The position numbers and the translations under genes are program-made. Shown one piece after another: positions 19,891 through 38,492 of a DNA stretch of 64,000 nucleotides. The notes below the pieces were generated by a model that was not told where the DNA came from, did no database searches, and saw only the letters and a list, made by a program, of their open reading frames with translations. Within the stretch, counting starts at the first letter, position 1, and the number at the start of each line of letters is the position of its first letter. Source of the DNA: Thermoguttaceae bacterium (GTDB lineage Bacteria; Planctomycetota; Planctomycetia; Pirellulales; Thermoguttaceae); the NCBI GenBank assembly GCA_025060325.1, contig JANXBW010000020.1:1-64000 (forward strand), given 5' to 3'.

Positions 19891-20883
19891 TAAGTCCACT
19901 CCCCAAACTGTCGGCTCAGCCACCGTTCCGCATTCGTAGATGATCTCGACTTTCGTCGCTCGGTTGAGCAACGGCTCCCAGCGCACAAGGAAAGCAAATC
20001 CGTGCCGCCGAAGGTTCCTCCAGCTAGGCCACCTTCTAAACCCACCCCGCGCCGTTCACGCAGGTCTGACTTGGGCATCGCGGTGGCAAGCTTGGCACAT
20101 CCACCACGCATTGACCCCCGTCCAGCTTGACAGGGCGACCTACCTTTTTGGGCGGCGACGGAACGATCATTCCCAAATCCATCAGTTGATAGCCGGGACG
20201 CAACCCGATCAAGAACCGGGCTGAACCTCGACAAGGCACCAGTCGTCACCCCTTCCGGCTATAGTCCCCATGCTCGATAGCCGGCTTGCCAAGAGCGGCA
20301 CGAGGCTCAACTTCCGCCCGGAAAAGCCCACATCACTCTCAAGCTCCCTTCACACGCGCCAGAGATCCCCGCGTTTCGCATGGCCACGTTTTACCAAGCA
20401 TCTTGCGAACTTGTTGGTCGACCACTCGTGCGGTGGGGCATCCCCTCGCTTCGGACGTGCCGGCGGCCCGATGGAATATACTCTCGGCATGACTTCCGCT
20501 GTAAGGATTGTTCCCTTCGCCCGCCCGGCCTGTTAAAGTAGACGCCTCCCGCCACACGGCTCGGCGCGATCCCGCCTAATGGGGCGGCCGATTGTAAAGC
20601 AAGGCAAGCTCGCAGCTGGAACTTGGGGTCGTCAAAAACCCACGGGAACTAGTGGTATGATTTGTTGCAGCATCTTGCAATCCGTGTGTCAGTTCCGGCA
20701 ACTTCGCCGAAAGCCAACAACCAAAGAGCCGTGCATCCCGCCGAGAAGTTTCTTCAAAGCTGAGGAAAGTTCGGGCTACATATAAGCCGTCGTACACGAA
20801 TAGCCACAGATTTCGAAACCGCGGTTTTCGGCCAGATGGGCACCGTCGCGACACATGATCACCTGCCAGATGGGAGCGGACAC
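19891..20883. other. Divergent intergenic region, almost 1 kb
   Basis: Lies between the minus-strand HzsA-like gene and the plus-strand sulfatase. No gene is credible. One minus-strand frame near 20060-20120 holds an isolated CXXCH but is closed by stops on both sides. Promoters of both flanking genes should be here. Confidence 0.4.
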
Positions 20884-22224
20884 GTGGTTCGATTGGAACG
20901 CTTAAGGTACCGAGGAAGCTTTAAGTTTGCATGGCTCTTGGCAAGCTTGGGGGTAGGGACACTTGCTGTTTGGGGGCAGGCGGCACAACCGCAGCTGGGG
21001 GATCGGCCTTTTCCAGTTAATGTCCTCCTAATCATTGGCGACGATCAAGGCTGGACCGACTTTGGTTTTATGGGGCACGCGGTGATCCGCACCCCTCACT
21101 TGGACCGCTTAGCCTCGCAAAGCCTGGTGTTTACGCGTGGGTATGTTCCCTCCAGCCTCTGCCGACCCAGTCTAGGCACTTTGGTCACAGGCCTTTATCC
21201 ACATCAACATCGCCTCACCTGCAACGATCCCCCGCAGGCAGGCACCGAAGCCGAGCGTCTGGCCTTGCGCGAGGAGCAGATTCGCTACATCGACAGACTG
21301 CCGACTTTGCCCAGACTCCTTGCGCAACGGGGATATCTAAGTTTGCAAACGGGCAAGTGGTGGGAAGGACATTACAGCCGGGGCGGCTTTACCCACGGCA
21401 TGACGCACGGCGATCCGAAACGGGGAGGCCGCCATGGCGACGAAGGTCTCCGGATCGGCCGCGAAGGACTCGAGCCCATTTTCCGTTTCATTAGGGAATG
21501 CGGCGAGCGGCCATTTTTCATTTGGTACGCACCTTACTTACCACACGAACCACACAATCCACCGCCGGCCATCTTGGAAAAGTACCGCCGTTTGACGGAT
21601 TCGCCCTATGTGGCGGCTTACTGGGCCATGTGCGAATGGTTCGACCAAACTTGTGGCCAATTGCTTGACCACCTAGAGCAAACCGGGCTGGCCCAACGAA
21701 CTCTGGTAGTGTTTGTCGTCGACAATGGCTGGATTCAAAATCCAACCGGTCGGGGATTTGCCCCCAAGTCGAAGCGCTCTCCCTACGACGGCGGTCTTCG
21801 GACACCCATCATGCTGAGGCTGCCCGGGGTGATTGAACCTAGGCGAGATGACGTGACTCCGGTGTCGACCGTTGACATCGTGCCAACGATCCTACGGGTA
21901 TGTGGGGTGGATGTACCGCCAGAACTACCCGGTAGCTGCTTGCTGGATCCGGAGGCGCTTCAGCGTCGAGCGGCCATCTTCGGGGCAACTTTTACGCACG
22001 AGGCTGTTGATGTTCACAACCCGGCGGCTAACCTTATGTACCGATGGACAATCGAAGGGTGGTGGAAGCTTATCGTTCCTCACCGAGCCAATGTGGCGGA
22101 GGGTAAGCCGGAACTTTATAACCTTAAGGAGGATCCCCACGAGAGCCGCAACTTGATCGATGAGCATCCGGAGGTGTACCACAGGCTTTTGCAGCGTATC
22201 GAAGGGTGGTGGTCCGTCCCGTAA
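20884..22224 (+). CDS. Sulfatase family protein with atypical CRPSL active-site motif
   Basis: 446 residues from a GTG at 20884 with GGGAG eight bases upstream; an ATG at 20836 is the alternative. A signal peptide is visible (FAWLLASLGVGTLAVWGQA). The alkaline-phosphatase-superfamily fold begins NVLLIIGDDQGWTDFGFMG with the metal-binding Asp pair. The nucleophile region reads SSLCRPSLGTLVTGLYPHQH with Cys93. The standard formylglycine signature is CxPSR; here the fifth position is Leu and an Arg sits at the second. Later segments HYSRGGFTHG, VVFVVDNGWIQNP (second metal site, DN) and SKRSPYDGGLRTP fit the family. The gene converges on a radical SAM gene 24 bases away. Function: probably hydrolysis of sulfate or phosphate esters outside the cytoplasm; whether the Cys is matured is uncertain. 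Confidence 0.88.
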   Translation: MVRLERLRYRGSFKFAWLLASLGVGTLAVWGQAAQPQLGDRPFPVNVLLIIGDDQGWTDFGFMGHAVIRTPHLDRLASQSLVFTRGYVPSSLCRPSLGTLVTGLYPHQHRLTCNDPPQAGTEAERLALREEQIRYIDRLPTLPRLLAQRGYLSLQTGKWWEGHYSRGGFTHGMTHGDPKRGGRHGDEGLRIGREGLEPIFRFIRECGERPFFIWYAPYLPHEPHNPPPAILEKYRRLTDSPYVAAYWAMCEWFDQTCGQLLDHLEQTGLAQRTLVVFVVDNGWIQNPTGRGFAPKSKRSPYDGGLRTPIMLRLPGVIEPRRDDVTPVSTVDIVPTILRVCGVDVPPELPGSCLLDPEALQRRAAIFGATFTHEAVDVHNPAANLMYRWTIEGWWKLIVPHRANVAEGKPELYNLKEDPHESRNLIDEHPEVYHRLLQRIEGWWSVP

Positions 22225-24603: not shown

Positions 24604-25344
24604 TCAGCGCCGCCGGCGAGAACTCGTAAGGGCTAACCGGAGCAATAGCCAGGCGGCTTCAAAACCCTCGCGCCAGTTAATTTTGGAGTGCCCGGCGGCA
24701 CGTTCCACAAAGCGAATAGGGACCTCCACAATGCGTGCTCCCCGCCGTCGGAGCCGCCATAAGATCTCCTCAAAGAAGGAGAACCCCTGGGAGCGGACCT
24801 CCTCTAACGGAAGCTGAGCCAGAGTCTTCACGCGGTAGCAGCGGAATGCACCGCTACAGTCTCGCACTGGCAACCAGAGGAGCCATCGAGCGTACAGGTT
24901 AATAGCCCACGACATCAACCGACGAAACCACGGCCAGCCCTCAATCATGCCCCCTCGCACGTACCGGGAGCCAATCGCGACGTCAACAGGGGTACCGGTC
25001 ACCGGGTCCATTGCAGATAGAAGGTCGGGCACATGATGAGGGCGATGACTCCAGTCGGCATCCATGGTCACAAGGAGGTCGTAACCAGCTTCGACGGCAT
25101 ACCGTATGGCCTGGAGATGGGCCGTGCCGATCCCTAACTTGCCCGGCCGATGAGTGACCTTTAGCCGTGGCTCGTGGGCCGCCTTTGCCTCGCACCACCG
25201 CCCCGTGCCATCAGGCGAATTGTCATCCACGACAAGCACATCTGCCTGCGGACAAACGCGCCAAATCTCTTCCAAAAGGGAGGGAAGATTCTCCATCTCG
25301 TTATATGTGGCAAGGGCTACAAGAATTCGCCGCAAGCTAACCAC
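24604..25344 (-). CDS. Polyprenol monophosphomannose synthase (GT2 family)
   Basis: 246 residues, GTG start with GGGAG upstream. A GT-A glycosyltransferase: ILVALATYNEMENLPSLLEEI at the N-terminus, VLVVDDNSPDGTG (nucleotide-binding Asp residues at about 38-40), DLLVTMDADWSHRPHHVPDLL (DxD metal-binding motif), and VAIGSRYVRGG with GAFRCYRV downstream, all hallmarks of dolichol-phosphate mannose synthases. It transfers mannose from GDP-mannose to polyprenyl phosphate at the inner face of the membrane, making a donor for periplasmic mannosylation. It has no C-terminal membrane spans, so it is the soluble, single-domain type. The sugar and lipid specificity is inferred from family. Confidence 0.93.
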   Translation of the reverse strand: MVSLRRILVALATYNEMENLPSLLEEIWRVCPQADVLVVDDNSPDGTGRWCEAKAAHEPRLKVTHRPGKLGIGTAHLQAIRYAVEAGYDLLVTMDADWSHRPHHVPDLLSAMDPVTGTPVDVAIGSRYVRGGMIEGWPWFRRLMSWAINLYARWLLWLPVRDCSGAFRCYRVKTLAQLPLEEVRSQGFSFFEEILWRLRRRGARIVEVPIRFVERAAGHSKINWREGFEAAWLLLRLALTSSRRRR

Positions 25345-28937: not shown

Positions 28938-28966
28938 GGGTCTTATGGAGACGGGGCTCCTTGCCA

Positions 28967-31900
28967 ATGGTCAACGAGGGGGAGCGATCATTCGCCGGAA
29001 AGCAACCGTCTCCCACGCTGGGATCGGTCATTCTGTGGGCTATCTGGTGGGGACTCCTGTGTGGCTTTTTGGAGCTTGGCAACCAAAAGCTCCACGACTT
29101 CCTGCTCGGTTTGCCGCTCCCATTGGGCCCGGAAGCCTTGTGGCTTGCCCCCGCTGTCGCCTGCGCACTATTCCTTGCCGTCGGGATTTTTCTCCTGCTA
29201 CTTGGGGTCGCTATCCGGCCCCCTGCCGCAATTACACTGGCACTTTTCTCCTATCCCTTTTTGCTCGTCGCCAACCTGGTCCTGATGTATCGCCAGATTC
29301 ACCCCGTATCGGGCGCACTGGTCGCACTTGGAGCCGGGGTGTTTGCAGCAAGAACCTTGATCCGGCATCTTGAGCGGTGGCATCGCCTGGTCACCCGCAG
29401 TATCCTCCCCCTGAGTATCGGGGCCTTTGTTTGGTCGATGGGCAGTGCTTTTGGCCCCAGGCTTTATGAGCAGCACCTAGCCTCGGCACTTAGCTGTCGC
29501 CTTCCCTATGCCCCAAATGTCATTGTGGTCATTTGGGACAGCGTTCGGGCCGCTAGTTTGAGCACATACGGTTATCACCGAGAAACCTCCCCCAATCTGT
29601 CGCGCTTGGCAGCCGAGGGAATTCTCGCTGAACTAGCCGTGGCGCCCTCTTCGTGGACACTCCCCAGCCATGCGGCATTCTTTACCGGCCTCTGGCCCGA
29701 CCAACTTCGCACCGTGTGGGGAAGGGAGCTTGAAAACGATGTCCCCACACTAGCCGAGGTCCTTCGGGATCATGGATATTTGACGGCGGGCTTTTCGGCG
29801 AACCAACTTTTTTGTACACGAATCCACGGCCTTCATCGAGGATTCATCCACTTTGAAGACTTTAGCGACCTCCGTACCGAATGGCTCCTTAGTCTGGCCA
29901 TTGGTCGACGAGTGGTCACCAGTCCCCGACTCCAGTTCCTGCTTGGCCGGCGACATTATTGGGGGCGCAAAACCGCCGAAGAAACGATCGCCGATTTTCT
30001 TCGGTGGCTTGATCGCTCGCAACACCGACCGTTTTTTGCCTTTTTGAACCTCATCGACGCCCATCAGCCTTATTTCGCCGCGGAACCATTTGATGAAACG
30101 TTCGGCCCACGGCATCTCCGGGAAGGGATCCGTTACGACGCGGAACTTCGTCATGCGATCGTGCTTGAGCCAGAGCGGCTCTCAGTGGACGAGCGCCGTG
30201 CCGAGCAAGATGCCTACGATGGCGCAATCGCCTACCTCGACCATTGCTTGGGGATGCTTGTCAACGCCCTTGCCCTTCGTGGCCTCCTTGATGAGGCAAT
30301 CTTGCTCATCACGTCAGATCACGGCGAGCATTTTGGCGAGCACGGGCTTCGCGACCATGGGAACTCGTTATATCGGGCCGTTATCCATGTGCCGCTTGTT
30401 CTGCGGCTGCCTCGGGCAGCTTGTGCCGGAAAAAAGGTCACCCTCCCCGTCTCTTTGTGCGATCTTCCGGCCACGATCCTCGACCTTGTCGGTCTGCCGG
30501 GCAAACTGCCAGGTTGCTCATGGCGAGGGCTTTGGGAAACGGAATCAGGGCCCAGGCATTCCCTTCATTCGTCGCGACCTATTTACGCGGCACTTCGGCC
30601 GCTGATTCCACCCTTGCAGGGTGAGCTGTTTATGGACGCGGTCATCTTTGACCGGTGGTGGTATATCCGCGACGGCTCCGGCCGACAAGAACTCTACAAT
30701 TGGCAACTTGATCCAGCAGAAGTCAACAACCTTGCTGCCTCGCCAGAAGGGGCAAAAGTTGTTGAGCAACTAGATCAATTACTGCAAAAGCGGCGGCCGA
30801 GGGGACAAGACGAGCCACCGGACTTTACCTCCGGTGACCAGCCCACGCCACCGGCCTTACCAAACCCAGCTTTAAGCTCGGCCGGAAGTTTCGCCAAATG
30901 CGTCTGGCCTGCCGTTTATATATCCCTTTGTGCATTGGCTGCCGGGTTCTTGGCGCAGCTTGCCCATCTTAGCATCGTTCTGGCATGGTCCCGAAAACGG
31001 TGCCTCCAGGGCCGGTATTTTGGCCTTCCCAAGGCGGAGCGAAAAAAGTTTGCGCGGATTCTGCGGCGGCACCGTCGCGTGTTGACGCCAACTTTGTTTG
31101 TCCTAAGCAAACTCGGATCCGTTCGGCTTGACCAAGCGACTTTCTTGTTTCGGGCGGTAGCCGGTCCTAAAGGCTCCTGTAGCCCAGAGTCTTTCCGTGC
31201 TGCGACAGAATATCGGCCTTCCCCACACGATGTTTTTGTGGTGACCCAACTGCGGTCTGGCACCACGTGGATGCAGCAGGTCGTTTACCAAATACTTGTC
31301 CGCGGGAAGGTGGACTTAGGGCACTCCGGCCAAACCATGGGGGCGGTTTCCCCGTGGCTTGAGTCGCTGTGGACGATTCCTCCCTGGGAAGCGCCGCTCC
31401 TTGGGCAGCGGCCAGCCTTTCGCATTATCAAAACACACTTGCCAGTAGAGCTTTGTCCCCTGGCCTCGGCAGCTAAGTATATTTATGTGGCCAGACACCC
31501 GGTGGCCTGCTTTGCGAGTTGTGTCGACTTTTTCCGGGCGAACCTCGGGCCATTCCGGATCGAACTTGAGGAGATCCTCCGTTGGTTCTGCGATCGAAAA
31601 TTGGCTTGGTGGACACCTTGGCCCGACCATGTGGGAAGATGGTGGCAACTGGCACAGCAAAACGACAACATACTATTTACCACGTATGAACAAATGGCCA
31701 GCGATTTGTCAGCCGTGGTTCACCGGGTGGCACATTTCTTAGGTGTTTCGCCTCTTTCCCCGGAGGAGATTTCCAGTGTCCTTAAGCACGCAAGCTTTAT
31801 CCATATGAGGACCCACTACGATGCCTTCGAGGTAACTCCGCCCCACCTACTGCGGCAGGGCGAACCTCTCTTTGTCGCTGGGCGGTGCCACCGCCACGAG

Positions 31901-32092
31901 CATCTGCCCGGAAGTGTCGTAAACGAAGTAAGAGATTTTTGTCGACAAGCCCTATCGGCCCAAGGAGTTTCGCTCGCGGACTACTATCCGGATCTTGATG
32001 ATAAGGAGCAGCGTGACAGGCTATTGACCGGGCGACCGTGCCCGTCCCAAGGCGCTCGGTTCTGGCCCGGAAAGTGTAGCACCTCTCCCTAA
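28967..32092 (+). CDS. Membrane fusion protein: sulfatase-like (AP superfamily) domain plus PAPS sulfotransferase domain
   Basis: 1041 residues from the ATG at 28967 (a TTG six bases earlier is an alternative). Five membrane spans lie within about residues 18-165. The alkaline-phosphatase-superfamily domain covers about 180-590: NVIVVIWDSVRAASLSTYGY (metal Asp), SSWTLPSHAAFFTGLWP with Thr231 at the nucleophile position, and ITSDHGEHFGEHG with Asp451/His452. It lacks the Cys of formylglycine sulfatases, so a phosphohydrolase or phosphotransferase is more likely. A sixth span at about 649-673 is followed by a basic stretch (WSRKRC, KAERKKFARILRRHRR). The C-terminal sulfotransferase covers about 750-1000: VVTQLRSGTTWMQQVVYQ (5'-phosphosulfate loop, residues 761-768), FRIIKTHLP, and YVARHPVACFAS (3'-phosphate motif, Arg843). 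Positive-inside topology puts the first catalytic domain outside and the sulfotransferase in the cytoplasm. Acceptors are unknown. Confidence 0.9.
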   Translation: MVNEGERSFAGKQPSPTLGSVILWAIWWGLLCGFLELGNQKLHDFLLGLPLPLGPEALWLAPAVACALFLAVGIFLLLLGVAIRPPAAITLALFSYPFLLVANLVLMYRQIHPVSGALVALGAGVFAARTLIRHLERWHRLVTRSILPLSIGAFVWSMGSAFGPRLYEQHLASALSCRLPYAPNVIVVIWDSVRAASLSTYGYHRETSPNLSRLAAEGILAELAVAPSSWTLPSHAAFFTGLWPDQLRTVWGRELENDVPTLAEVLRDHGYLTAGFSANQLFCTRIHGLHRGFIHFEDFSDLRTEWLLSLAIGRRVVTSPRLQFLLGRRHYWGRKTAEETIADFLRWLDRSQHRPFFAFLNLIDAHQPYFAAEPFDETFGPRHLREGIRYDAELRHAIVLEPERLSVDERRAEQDAYDGAIAYLDHCLGMLVNALALRGLLDEAILLITSDHGEHFGEHGLRDHGNSLYRAVIHVPLVLRLPRAACAGKKVTLPVSLCDLPATILDLVGLPGKLPGCSWRGLWETESGPRHSLHSSRPIYAALRPLIPPLQGELFMDAVIFDRWWYIRDGSGRQELYNWQLDPAEVNNLAASPEGAKVVEQLDQLLQKRRPRGQDEPPDFTSGDQPTPPALPNPALSSAGSFAKCVWPAVYISLCALAAGFLAQLAHLSIVLAWSRKRCLQGRYFGLPKAERKKFARILRRHRRVLTPTLFVLSKLGSVRLDQATFLFRAVAGPKGSCSPESFRAATEYRPSPHDVFVVTQLRSGTTWMQQVVYQILVRGKVDLGHSGQTMGAVSPWLESLWTIPPWEAPLLGQRPAFRIIKTHLPVELCPLASAAKYIYVARHPVACFASCVDFFRANLGPFRIELEEILRWFCDRKLAWWTPWPDHVGRWWQLAQQNDNILFTTYEQMASDLSAVVHRVAHFLGVSPLSPEEISSVLKHASFIHMRTHYDAFEVTPPHLLRQGEPLFVAGRCHRHEHLPGSVVNEVRDFCRQALSAQGVSLADYYPDLDDKEQRDRLLTGRPCPSQGARFWPGKCSTSP

Positions 32093-32451
32093 CCGTCGGA
32101 CGCCTGGTCGTCGAGCTCAATAGCCTCCAAGCGCAACTCGTGCCCCCCTTGGAGGGTTATTTCCGGCGATCCGCACAAGGGGCATTGGAAGAGCAAGTCT
32201 TCCGCCGGCGATTTCTGGCCACAGGCCCGGCACAGGCAGTCGCCGGGTACACTCCGGAGGACAAGCTCAGCCCCCTCCAAGAAAGTCCCCGCAGAAAGGG
32301 TGACAAACGCGAAATCAAGCGCGTCTGGGAGCACGCCAGACAATGCCCCGACCGCAACTTCCACGGACCGGACCCGCCCGGCAAGGCCTTCTCGATCAAG
32401 CACAGCCCGAACTTGCTGGATAAGTGCCTCAGCGATTGTAGCCTCGTGCAT
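32089..32451 (-). CDS. hypA: Hydrogenase/urease nickel chaperone HypA
   Basis: 120 residues from the ATG of MHEATIAEALIQQ at 32451; nine additional upstream codons are open but would bury the essential N-terminal His2. HypA delivers nickel (with HypB) to [NiFe]-hydrogenase large subunits. Ni binding uses the N-terminal amine and His2 of the MHE start, both present. The zinc site is CRACGQ...CPLCG, two CxxC motifs at about residues 73-95. The sequence RVRSVEVAVGALSGVLPDALDFAF fits the family. No hypB-F or hydrogenase gene lies in this window, so it is an orphan here. Its stop codon (TAG) overlaps the TAA of the convergent sulfatase-like/sulfotransferase gene, sharing CTAA. Confidence 0.93.
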   Translation of the reverse strand: MHEATIAEALIQQVRAVLDREGLAGRVRSVEVAVGALSGVLPDALDFAFVTLSAGTFLEGAELVLRSVPGDCLCRACGQKSPAEDLLFQCPLCGSPEITLQGGHELRLEAIELDDQASDG

Positions 32452-32777
32452 TGGGAATATCCCTCTGGCTACCGGCAAAATTTATCCTACCGGCTAGTCC
32501 CGCTACGCACGAAGCTTACCCGCATGAAGAAAGGCCCCGCCGCGGCAAGGCCTATCCATCCCAGCCGAAATGCGGGGCCTCTTCCACACCGAGAATTCCG
32601 GCAACCTCGCAACGCCTAGCGAAGTTGTGCGGCCGACAGCCCTTGCAAGTAGCTATTATCCTAAACGCGGCGCCAGGGCTTCAGGCCAAAAAGCCGTTCC
32701 ACGAAGCGCAAACCGCCCTCCTGCCGAGCCCCGGTCGGATCGAGGTGCATGTTTGGCACCACGAGCGGCCAGTACTG
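32452..32777. other. Intergenic region with a terminator-like hairpin
   Basis: About 325 bases between the minus-strand hypA and coiled-coil genes. Contains the stem at 32532-32580 (separate entry). No gene recognised; the hypA promoter should lie between the stem and 32451. Confidence 0.4.
32532..32580 (-). terminator. Possible terminator of the coiled-coil protein gene
   Basis: Read on the minus strand, AGGCCCCGC pairs perfectly with GCGGGGCCT across a 31-nt loop that itself can fold, followed by TTTCTTCAT. It lies about 200 bases after the stop codon at 32778 and 80 bases before hypA. The long loop and short T-run make it moderate evidence. Confidence 0.4.
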
Positions 32778-37040: not shown

Positions 37041-38492
37041 TCATAGCAGGGGACTCATCAGTCGAGCAATTCCGTCAAGGGTCTTTAGCCATTCGGGCCG
37101 AGCCTGCCACTCCTCTGGTGTCAACATCCGCGAGCGGGCCAAATACTGGAACTGAAGCCGACGTAACTCGGCGGTCACCCTTTGGCCGTAAAGCAGCAAG
37201 TTGACCTCGAAATTGAGGCTGAATGAGCGAATATCAAAGTTCCCCGTCCCTAGGAAGGAAAAACAGTTATCGATTGTCATTGTTTTGGCGTGAAGCAGAC
37301 CGGGCCGATAAAGATAAATCTTGCAGCCCAGGTCCAAAAGATCGCCGAAATAGGACCAGGCGGCGGCCCCAACTAGCAGTTTGTCGCATTTTTCCGGTAC
37401 GATTAGGATCACCTCCACGCCCCGCAGAACGGCGATTTGAACCGCCTGAAGGAACGACTGATCTGGCACGAAGTAAGGGGTGGTCACAATCACCTGCTGG
37501 CGAGCCGTGTGAAGGGCGCCAATCACCATGCGATGGTAATTCTCCACCGGGTAAGTCGGCCCGCTCGGCAGGACCTGGATTGGTACATCGCCCTTCGGTT
37601 GGGTGGCGGGGAAGAACGCCGCGTCGCTGAGAATCTCCTCTGTCTCGAAATACCAATCACCTAAGAAGACCGCCTGAAGAGCCAGAACGGCCGGGCCTTC
37701 CACCCGCGCTGTCATATCATGCCACGCTAGCCCCCGCCGGCCGTAGTCGGCGTTGATAATATTCTGCGAGCCGGTGTAACCCACCTTGCCATCGATTACC
37801 ACAATCTTGCGGTGATTCCGGACATCGATTCGGGCTACCGTGCGGCGGAAAAGTCCAACCGGAAGCGCAACCTGAACATTTACCCCCTTCCGAATAAGCT
37901 CCCCAGCCAAGCGGCGAAGCATGAACCGAGACCCCACAGCGTCAACAAGTACGCGGCAAGCTACCCCCCGTGCGGCAGCGCGAATGAGGGCCGCACCCAC
38001 CCTCTGTGCCGTCTCATCATCATGGAAGATGTAAAAAAGCATGTGGATGTGATGAGAAGCCTGGTCGATGTCGTCAATTAGCCGGTCGATGACATCCTCG
38101 GTCTCGGTAAGAAACTCCACGTGATTACCGCCGAGAATGGGCATTTGGCCGAGACGCTCTGCCAAACGAACGGCGGAGGACGCCTCGGCGGGAAGGGCCG
38201 GGTTGACCACCAAACTATCTTGGGGGAGCCGACCTATTTGCCGATGAAATTCCTCAATGAGCTGGCGATAGCGCTCCACCCGCCGCCGCGGTAGGCGGTT
38301 ACTCCCAACCAGTAAGTAAAGGACCAAACCCACCCACGGAAGGAAAAAGATGACGGTAAGCCAAGCCAAAGCAGCATTGGGACTTCGCCGTCGCGGGACA
38401 GTGAAAAGCATCACCAATCGGATCGCCCATTCGGTGACGTAAAGCAGCACGTAAAGGATTTCTCGCGATCCCGCATCCGTCCATAAGGACAT
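37041..38492 (-). CDS. cls: Cardiolipin synthase (phospholipase D superfamily)
   Basis: 483 residues. Two N-terminal membrane spans (about residues 8-27 and 38-60: VLLYVTEWAIRLVMLF, AALAWLTVIFFLPWVGLVLYLLVG) anchor it in the inner membrane. Two HxKxxxxD motifs form the active site: HRKIVVID within RNHRKIVVIDGKVGYTGSQNI at about residue 230, and HAKTMTID within LLHAKTMTIDNCFSFLGTGNFDIRSF near 405. It condenses two phosphatidylglycerol molecules (or PG and PE) to cardiolipin. Length and architecture match bacterial Cls. No phospholipid gene is adjacent. A GTCAAC/GTTGAC inverted repeat lies downstream at 36988-37003. Confidence 0.95.
   Translation of the reverse strand: MSLWTDAGSREILYVLLYVTEWAIRLVMLFTVPRRRSPNAALAWLTVIFFLPWVGLVLYLLVGSNRLPRRRVERYRQLIEEFHRQIGRLPQDSLVVNPALPAEASSAVRLAERLGQMPILGGNHVEFLTETEDVIDRLIDDIDQASHHIHMLFYIFHDDETAQRVGAALIRAAARGVACRVLVDAVGSRFMLRRLAGELIRKGVNVQVALPVGLFRRTVARIDVRNHRKIVVIDGKVGYTGSQNIINADYGRRGLAWHDMTARVEGPAVLALQAVFLGDWYFETEEILSDAAFFPATQPKGDVPIQVLPSGPTYPVENYHRMVIGALHTARQQVIVTTPYFVPDQSFLQAVQIAVLRGVEVILIVPEKCDKLLVGAAAWSYFGDLLDLGCKIYLYRPGLLHAKTMTIDNCFSFLGTGNFDIRSFSLNFEVNLLLYGQRVTAELRRLQFQYLARSRMLTPEEWQARPEWLKTLDGIARLMSPLL

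Follow-up and report, generated by a model that had tools for sequence, protein, structure and literature searches.

A single-frame fusion of a membrane alkaline-phosphatase-superfamily protein and a PAPS sulfotransferase in a Thermoguttaceae bacterium

The fused gene and its product

The forward-strand frame at 28967-32092 of the window (the whole 64,000-nt stretch of source DNA analysed here) is translated without a stop into one protein of 1041 residues. Five helices are followed by an alkaline-phosphatase-superfamily ('sulfatase') domain (AP), a sixth span and a PAPS sulfotransferase (ST) (Table 1). Both domains, which the original prediction had named from the DNA letters, scored far above the Pfam cut-offs: Sulfatase (PF00884) matched residues 183-509 (E = 9e-45; 153.7 bits against a cut-off of 25) and Sulfotransfer_1 (PF00685) matched residues 753-957 (E = 1.4e-40; 139.8 bits against a cut-off of 22). 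The residues picked out in that prediction (T231, D451, H452, the loop QLRSGTTWM at 761-769 and R843) were found where it had placed them. On the minus strand, a HypA nickel-insertion protein gene (32089-32478) is convergent with the fused gene and overlaps its 3' end by 4 bases. The same strand carries, within about 6 kb of the fused gene, a family 2 glycosyltransferase gene (24604-25344) and a phospholipase D/cardiolipin-synthase-type gene (37041-38492); neither was seen beside the AP and ST sequences of the congeners G001 and G002.

Table 1 Features of the fused gene in window coordinates
Feature	Coordinates	Strand	Basis
Fused gene, 1041 aa	28967..32092	+	ATG start (TTG at 28961 possible); same fusion in G001
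Five N-terminal membrane helices, aa 18-173	29018..29485	+	AlphaFold helices; hydropathy
AP (sulfatase-fold) domain, aa 183-614	29513..30808	+	PF00884; fold matches at Z 27-33 to sulfatases, phosphonate monoester hydrolases, YejM, LtaP
Thr231, nucleophile position; WTLPSH motif, His235 replacing the sulfatase Arg	29657..29659	+	Alignment to solved sulfatases; invariant in 29 homologues
Asp451-His452 metal site and His464 (sulfatase Lys position)	30317..30358	+	Alignment to solved sulfatases; homologue conservation
Linker, aa 611-645, no ATG	30797..30901	+	AlphaFold; 13% identity between the two fused proteins
Sixth membrane span; its helix covers aa 639-682, with a hydrophobic core at about 646-675	30902..30991	+	Hydropathy, AlphaFold; homology to the span at the N-terminus of stand-alone STs
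Basic helical stretch, aa 676-720, predicted cytoplasmic	30992..31126	+	Charge distribution, AlphaFold
PAPS sulfotransferase domain, aa 721-1010	31127..31996	+	PF00685; fold match to SULT2B1a
5'-phosphosulfate loop QLRSGTTWM, aa 761-769	31247..31273	+	GTTW invariant in 40 homologues
KTH, aa 822-824, catalytic His824	31430..31438	+	K and H invariant in 40 homologues
3'-phosphate motif RHPVACFAS, Arg843 to Ser851	31493..31519	+	R843 in 39/40 (one unread), S851 in 40/40

The full 1041-residue protein was modelled with AlphaFold using an alignment of 21 homologues (mean pLDDT 79.5, pTM 0.60). The model placed the N-terminal helices at residues 18-47, 55-82, 85-106, 113-133 and 135-173; a disordered, low-confidence linker (611-643) and a long helix (639-682) preceded the ST fold. 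Modelled alone, the N-terminal half gave a mean pLDDT of 75.9 and a pTM of 0.79. Positive charge was concentrated in a basic loop after span 4 and a basic stretch after span 6, which argues that AP lies outside the membrane and ST inside, where PAPS is made. The opposite-side topology proposed originally fits this positive-inside pattern as a prediction; the AP domain is thus expected to be extracytoplasmic and the ST cytoplasmic.

Active sites of the two halves

The ST half kept R763 and T767 in the 5' loop, H824 as the base, and R843 and S851 for the 3' phosphate; GTTW, K822, H824, S851, G972 and R976 were invariant in 40 ST homologues. The features taken together to define a PAPS sulfotransferase (profile, 5'-PSB loop, catalytic His, 3'-PB Arg and Ser) were all present. 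Structure comparison matched the domain to SULT2B1a (Z 29.6, rmsd 2.2 over 265 residues), and the likeness to cytosolic SULT2B1 and its kin extends from the fold to the K/R-x-GTTW loop, the catalytic KTH and the R...S 3'-phosphate motif. Unlike the cytosolic SULTs, the bacterial ST family is anchored by an N-terminal span, and its member here is fused to an AP protein. The RKG loop that SULTs have near the C-terminus reads VAG in the window protein and RRG in G001, and is variable across the family. The same genome encodes APS kinase, which carries out the last step to PAPS, and a single other PF00685 match was found there besides the fused protein.

Alignment of the AP half to solved sulfatases indicated that Asp191 (its first metal Asp), His366, Asp451 and His452 are kept, and that Thr231 stands for Cys/Ser, His235 for Arg, His464 for Lys, and Ser/Thr at position 192 (Ser192 in the window protein) for the second Asp. 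All 29 AP homologues shared D191, R194, T231, H235, N361, H366, D451, H452, E454 and H464. The fold and PF00884 are those of type I (formylglycine) sulfatases and phosphonate monoester hydrolases of family S1; the replacements set the AP half apart from both. In place of the C/S-x-P-x-R motif with a convertible Cys or Ser that marks a formylglycine sulfatase, it has WTLPSH, with T and H invariant in the 29 homologues. The sulfate-pocket Lys expected 12 residues past the metal His/Asn/Gln, and present in the aligned 5g2v and 4uph, is likewise replaced by His464. Judged by these residues, the AP half is not a formylglycine sulfatase. A separate 462-aa sulfatase encoded at 20836-22224 on the plus strand of the window has the Cys motif SSLCRPSLGTLVTG and a DD pair, and is of the formylglycine type.

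In the EptA residue set, Thr and Asp-His are joined by a further His, and the LtaS set combines Thr with Asp-His (PMC7576196). The fused protein is like EptA/MCR, LtaS/LtaP and YejM/PbgA in having five N-terminal spans, an AP domain whose outside location is predicted here, a Thr nucleophile and an Asp-His metal pair. His464 follows His452 by 12 residues, the spacing of His453 and His465 in EptA (PMC7576196). It differs from EptA and LtaS in having D191 where these have Glu, and from all three groups in the additional sixth span and predicted cytoplasmic ST. Curated EptA, MCR and YejM models scored below their cut-offs (the best EptA model reached 44 bits against 561, with 415-466 as its best stretch), and the AP half was therefore not filed as EptA, MCR or YejM. 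By sequence it is closest overall to sulfatases and phosphonate monoester hydrolases.

Structure comparisons with the full model matched the AP domain to sulfatases (for example 3ed4; Z 29.0, rmsd 3.5 over 389 residues). With the N-terminal half, sulfatases, phosphonate monoester hydrolases, YejM and LtaP matched at similar scores (Z 27-33; 28.4 for LtaP 4uop). Full-length PbgA (6xlp) aligned over residues 17-613, spans included (Z 28.7), with an rmsd of 18.2 over 435 residues, indicating that the relative placement of the domains differs. EptA was absent among the best 50 matches of the fold comparison, an absence that carries no weight against kinship.

Could the protein combine a true sulfatase with a sulfotransferase, so that one reverses the action of the other on a shared sulfate ester (editing or recycling)? 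The overall fold and Pfam match to sulfatases would fit such a scheme, but Thr is not known to become formylglycine, and in the view of the authors of the sulfatase classification PF00884 proteins with Thr need experimental proof before they can be called sulfatases (PMC5066984). In the AP half, His takes the place of both the sulfatase Arg and the sulfatase Lys; the Cys-type enzyme at 20836-22224 is a real sulfatase that offers a contrast within the window. We regard editing or recycling as very unlikely. Since Thr is not a known formylglycine precursor and the residue set is that of EptA and LtaS, phosphate-ester hydrolysis or transfer is the better guess; most likely, to judge from these residues, the AP half would act on a phosphate-ester head group, cleaving or transferring it as EptA, LtaS or YejM do. 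The original argument that Thr favours phosphoryl over sulfuryl chemistry thus gains support, and appears stronger with His235 and His464 replacing Arg and Lys in 29/29 homologues. The AP half is a clear case in which the label 'sulfatase' is probably wrong.

Reality and origin of the fusion

The congener G001 encodes the same architecture in a single 1014-aa frame, 53% identical to the window protein. Identity between the two reached 60% in the AP domains and 58% in the STs, but only 13% in the linker, which is open in both; it has diverged freely yet stayed open, as a translated tether does. The junction (residues 600-720 in the window protein and 590-705 in G001) contains no ATG in either fused gene. 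GTG and TTG codons are present in these regions, and an internal start is conceivable there. RNA structure at the junction gave nothing above shuffles.

In the third congener, G002, the halves are two adjacent genes (634 and 392 codons) separated by 17 nt; they lie in different frames, and both frames have a stop at the border. The second of these, the ST gene, has its own ATG, and a membrane span homologous to span six falls within the first 36 residues of its product. A sequencing or assembly error that joined two genes would agree with this two-gene arrangement. Against it, G001 provides an independent fused frame with a different linker, and the G002 genes, lying in different frames with stops in both, could not be joined by one error. 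Together with the divergence of the linker, this led us to reject the error explanation as highly improbable; a frameshift or assembly join near 30830-31000, the weak point foreseen in the original prediction, is excluded in practice by G001.

In trees of each half, the two fused genes grouped together (100/100 and 100/99), with G002 next as their sister (99/93 for AP, 92/88 for ST), followed by the other genus. This branching argues for one fusion from an AP-ST operon: the operon is most likely the older arrangement, and the fusion, derived by its position in the trees, would have arisen once, before the window species and G001 diverged. Separate halves in relatives had been named beforehand as a finding that would tell against a genuine fusion. 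They are indeed separate in G002, but fused in G001, and the trees make the fusion the later state.

The neighbouring genus shows further arrangements. In G370, a stand-alone anchored ST lies just downstream of the 3' remnant of an AP gene, which shows 54% identity over 72 aa to the AP protein of G778; in G778 itself, AP and ST genes are both present, on different contigs. At the G370 locus (L069:5543-6957), the AP gene is cut off beside transposase-like sequence, with only its 3' end left before the intact ST gene. The fusion is confined to 2 of the 3 searchable species of the genus, and no other single-frame fusion of AP and ST turned up when ST loci were retrieved from about 790 genomes of its order and phylum. 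Full-text searches of open-licence papers returned no paper on an AP-ST fusion. The fusion is real, and joins two known enzyme kinds in a combination undescribed as far as these searches reach.

The arrangement in G002 also bears on the role of the AP domain. The build of five helices plus AP domain is that of YejM, and the alignment to PbgA includes the spans; the extracytoplasmic domain might accordingly be a sensor or pseudo-enzyme, a role proposed for PbgA/YejM, and report the state of the envelope to the cytoplasmic ST. The metal and nucleophile residues are nevertheless all invariant in the 29 homologues, as expected of an enzyme, and the G002 pair has no covalent link. We consider a sensor unlikely.

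Pairing of the two families and a possible working

When about 85,000 species genomes were scanned with the ST half, a span-anchored ST family emerged, with about 42 loci in which span and ST aligned. It occurs in at least six phyla: Planctomycetota, Gemmatimonadota, Acidobacteriota, Pseudomonadota, Verrucomicrobiota and lineages recorded as Deltaproteobacteria. Three genomes have a 5-span AP gene adjoining the ST gene: it follows ST on the same strand in Pirellulaceae PLA7, precedes ST on the same strand in Acidobacteria RBC068, and is convergent with ST in Gemmatimonadota bin741. Outside Thermoguttaceae, adjacency was found in 3 of the 17 genomes with both families, against a chance expectation of about 0.07 (P about 5e-5, in a test chosen after seeing the data and with an upper bound taken for the AP copy number).

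Seven gammaproteobacterial genomes with the ST had no AP match at 1e-20, and the 5-helix AP protein is common in Gemmatimonadota, where it forms tandem arrays; each family can thus work alone. Linkage of AP and ST comes and goes, with four changes on each gene tree, and ST-adjacent AP proteins formed no single clade apart from the unlinked ones. The three congeners shared no gene context beyond the AP-ST pair. Around stand-alone STs, no clear recurring neighbour was found (those checked include HrpB helicase, a PTS transporter and a PALP enzyme); these neighbour clusters are weak evidence, as the simple ORF caller takes antisense frames in high-GC loci. The anchored ST genes at L112 and L114 (Enterovibrio) and L097-L107 (Gammaproteobacteria) lie in genomes mostly lacking a 5-span AP and have no clearly conserved neighbour.

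Related bacteria make both enzymes from neighbouring genes, which suggests that AP and ST share one cell-envelope molecule. Our main reading, to which we give a probability of about one half, is that of a bifunctional inner-membrane protein, formed from two adjacent genes, whose halves serve one envelope-lipid or glycan pathway from opposite membrane faces. The metal-dependent, Thr-nucleophile domain of the 5-helix N-terminal half would cleave or transfer a phosphate-ester head group outside the cytoplasm. The sixth span, formerly the anchor of a stand-alone enzyme, would bring the chain back to the cytoplasm, where the SULT-type domain would use PAPS to sulfate a hydroxyl group, probably that of a membrane-borne acceptor. 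Fusion would fix the ratio and place of both enzymes in the shared pathway.

Neutral joining of neighbouring genes, with both domains at work on unrelated substrates and sharing only their expression, is a serious rival, though less likely than the shared pathway. The ST family occurs without the AP family in many genomes, the linker is unconserved, and linkage has been gained or lost repeatedly, all of which would agree with neutral joining; adjacency, however, recurs above chance in Thermoguttaceae, Pirellulaceae, Acidobacteriota and Gemmatimonadota, and no other neighbour family is clearly recurrent. One envelope molecule for both halves is the most economical reading, but that the halves act on the very same molecule is our guess. 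A more detailed version of the shared-pathway reading is tentative and rather doubtful: a lipid or lipid-linked glycan may be sulfated in the cytoplasmic leaflet by the ST, its phospho-linkage then cut or transferred outside by the AP, and the sulfated group delivered to an envelope polymer, in a pathway represented by the AP-ST gene pair of some Planctomycetota, Gemmatimonadota and Acidobacteriota.

Heparan sulfate N-deacetylase/N-sulfotransferase (NDST) also unites hydrolase and PAPS sulfotransferase within a membrane protein and applies them to a single polymer; both of its domains are on the Golgi lumen side, and its hydrolase is unrelated to the AP domain. The fusion described here physically links the anchored bacterial ST family to the Thr-type membrane 'sulfatase' family, and fusion and operon together make the partnership testable. 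The Gemmatimonadota arrays of the latter family comprise five to seven tandem 5-span Thr-type AP genes at L173 (G785:C3:392000-411500) and L174 (G783:C295:3000-22000).
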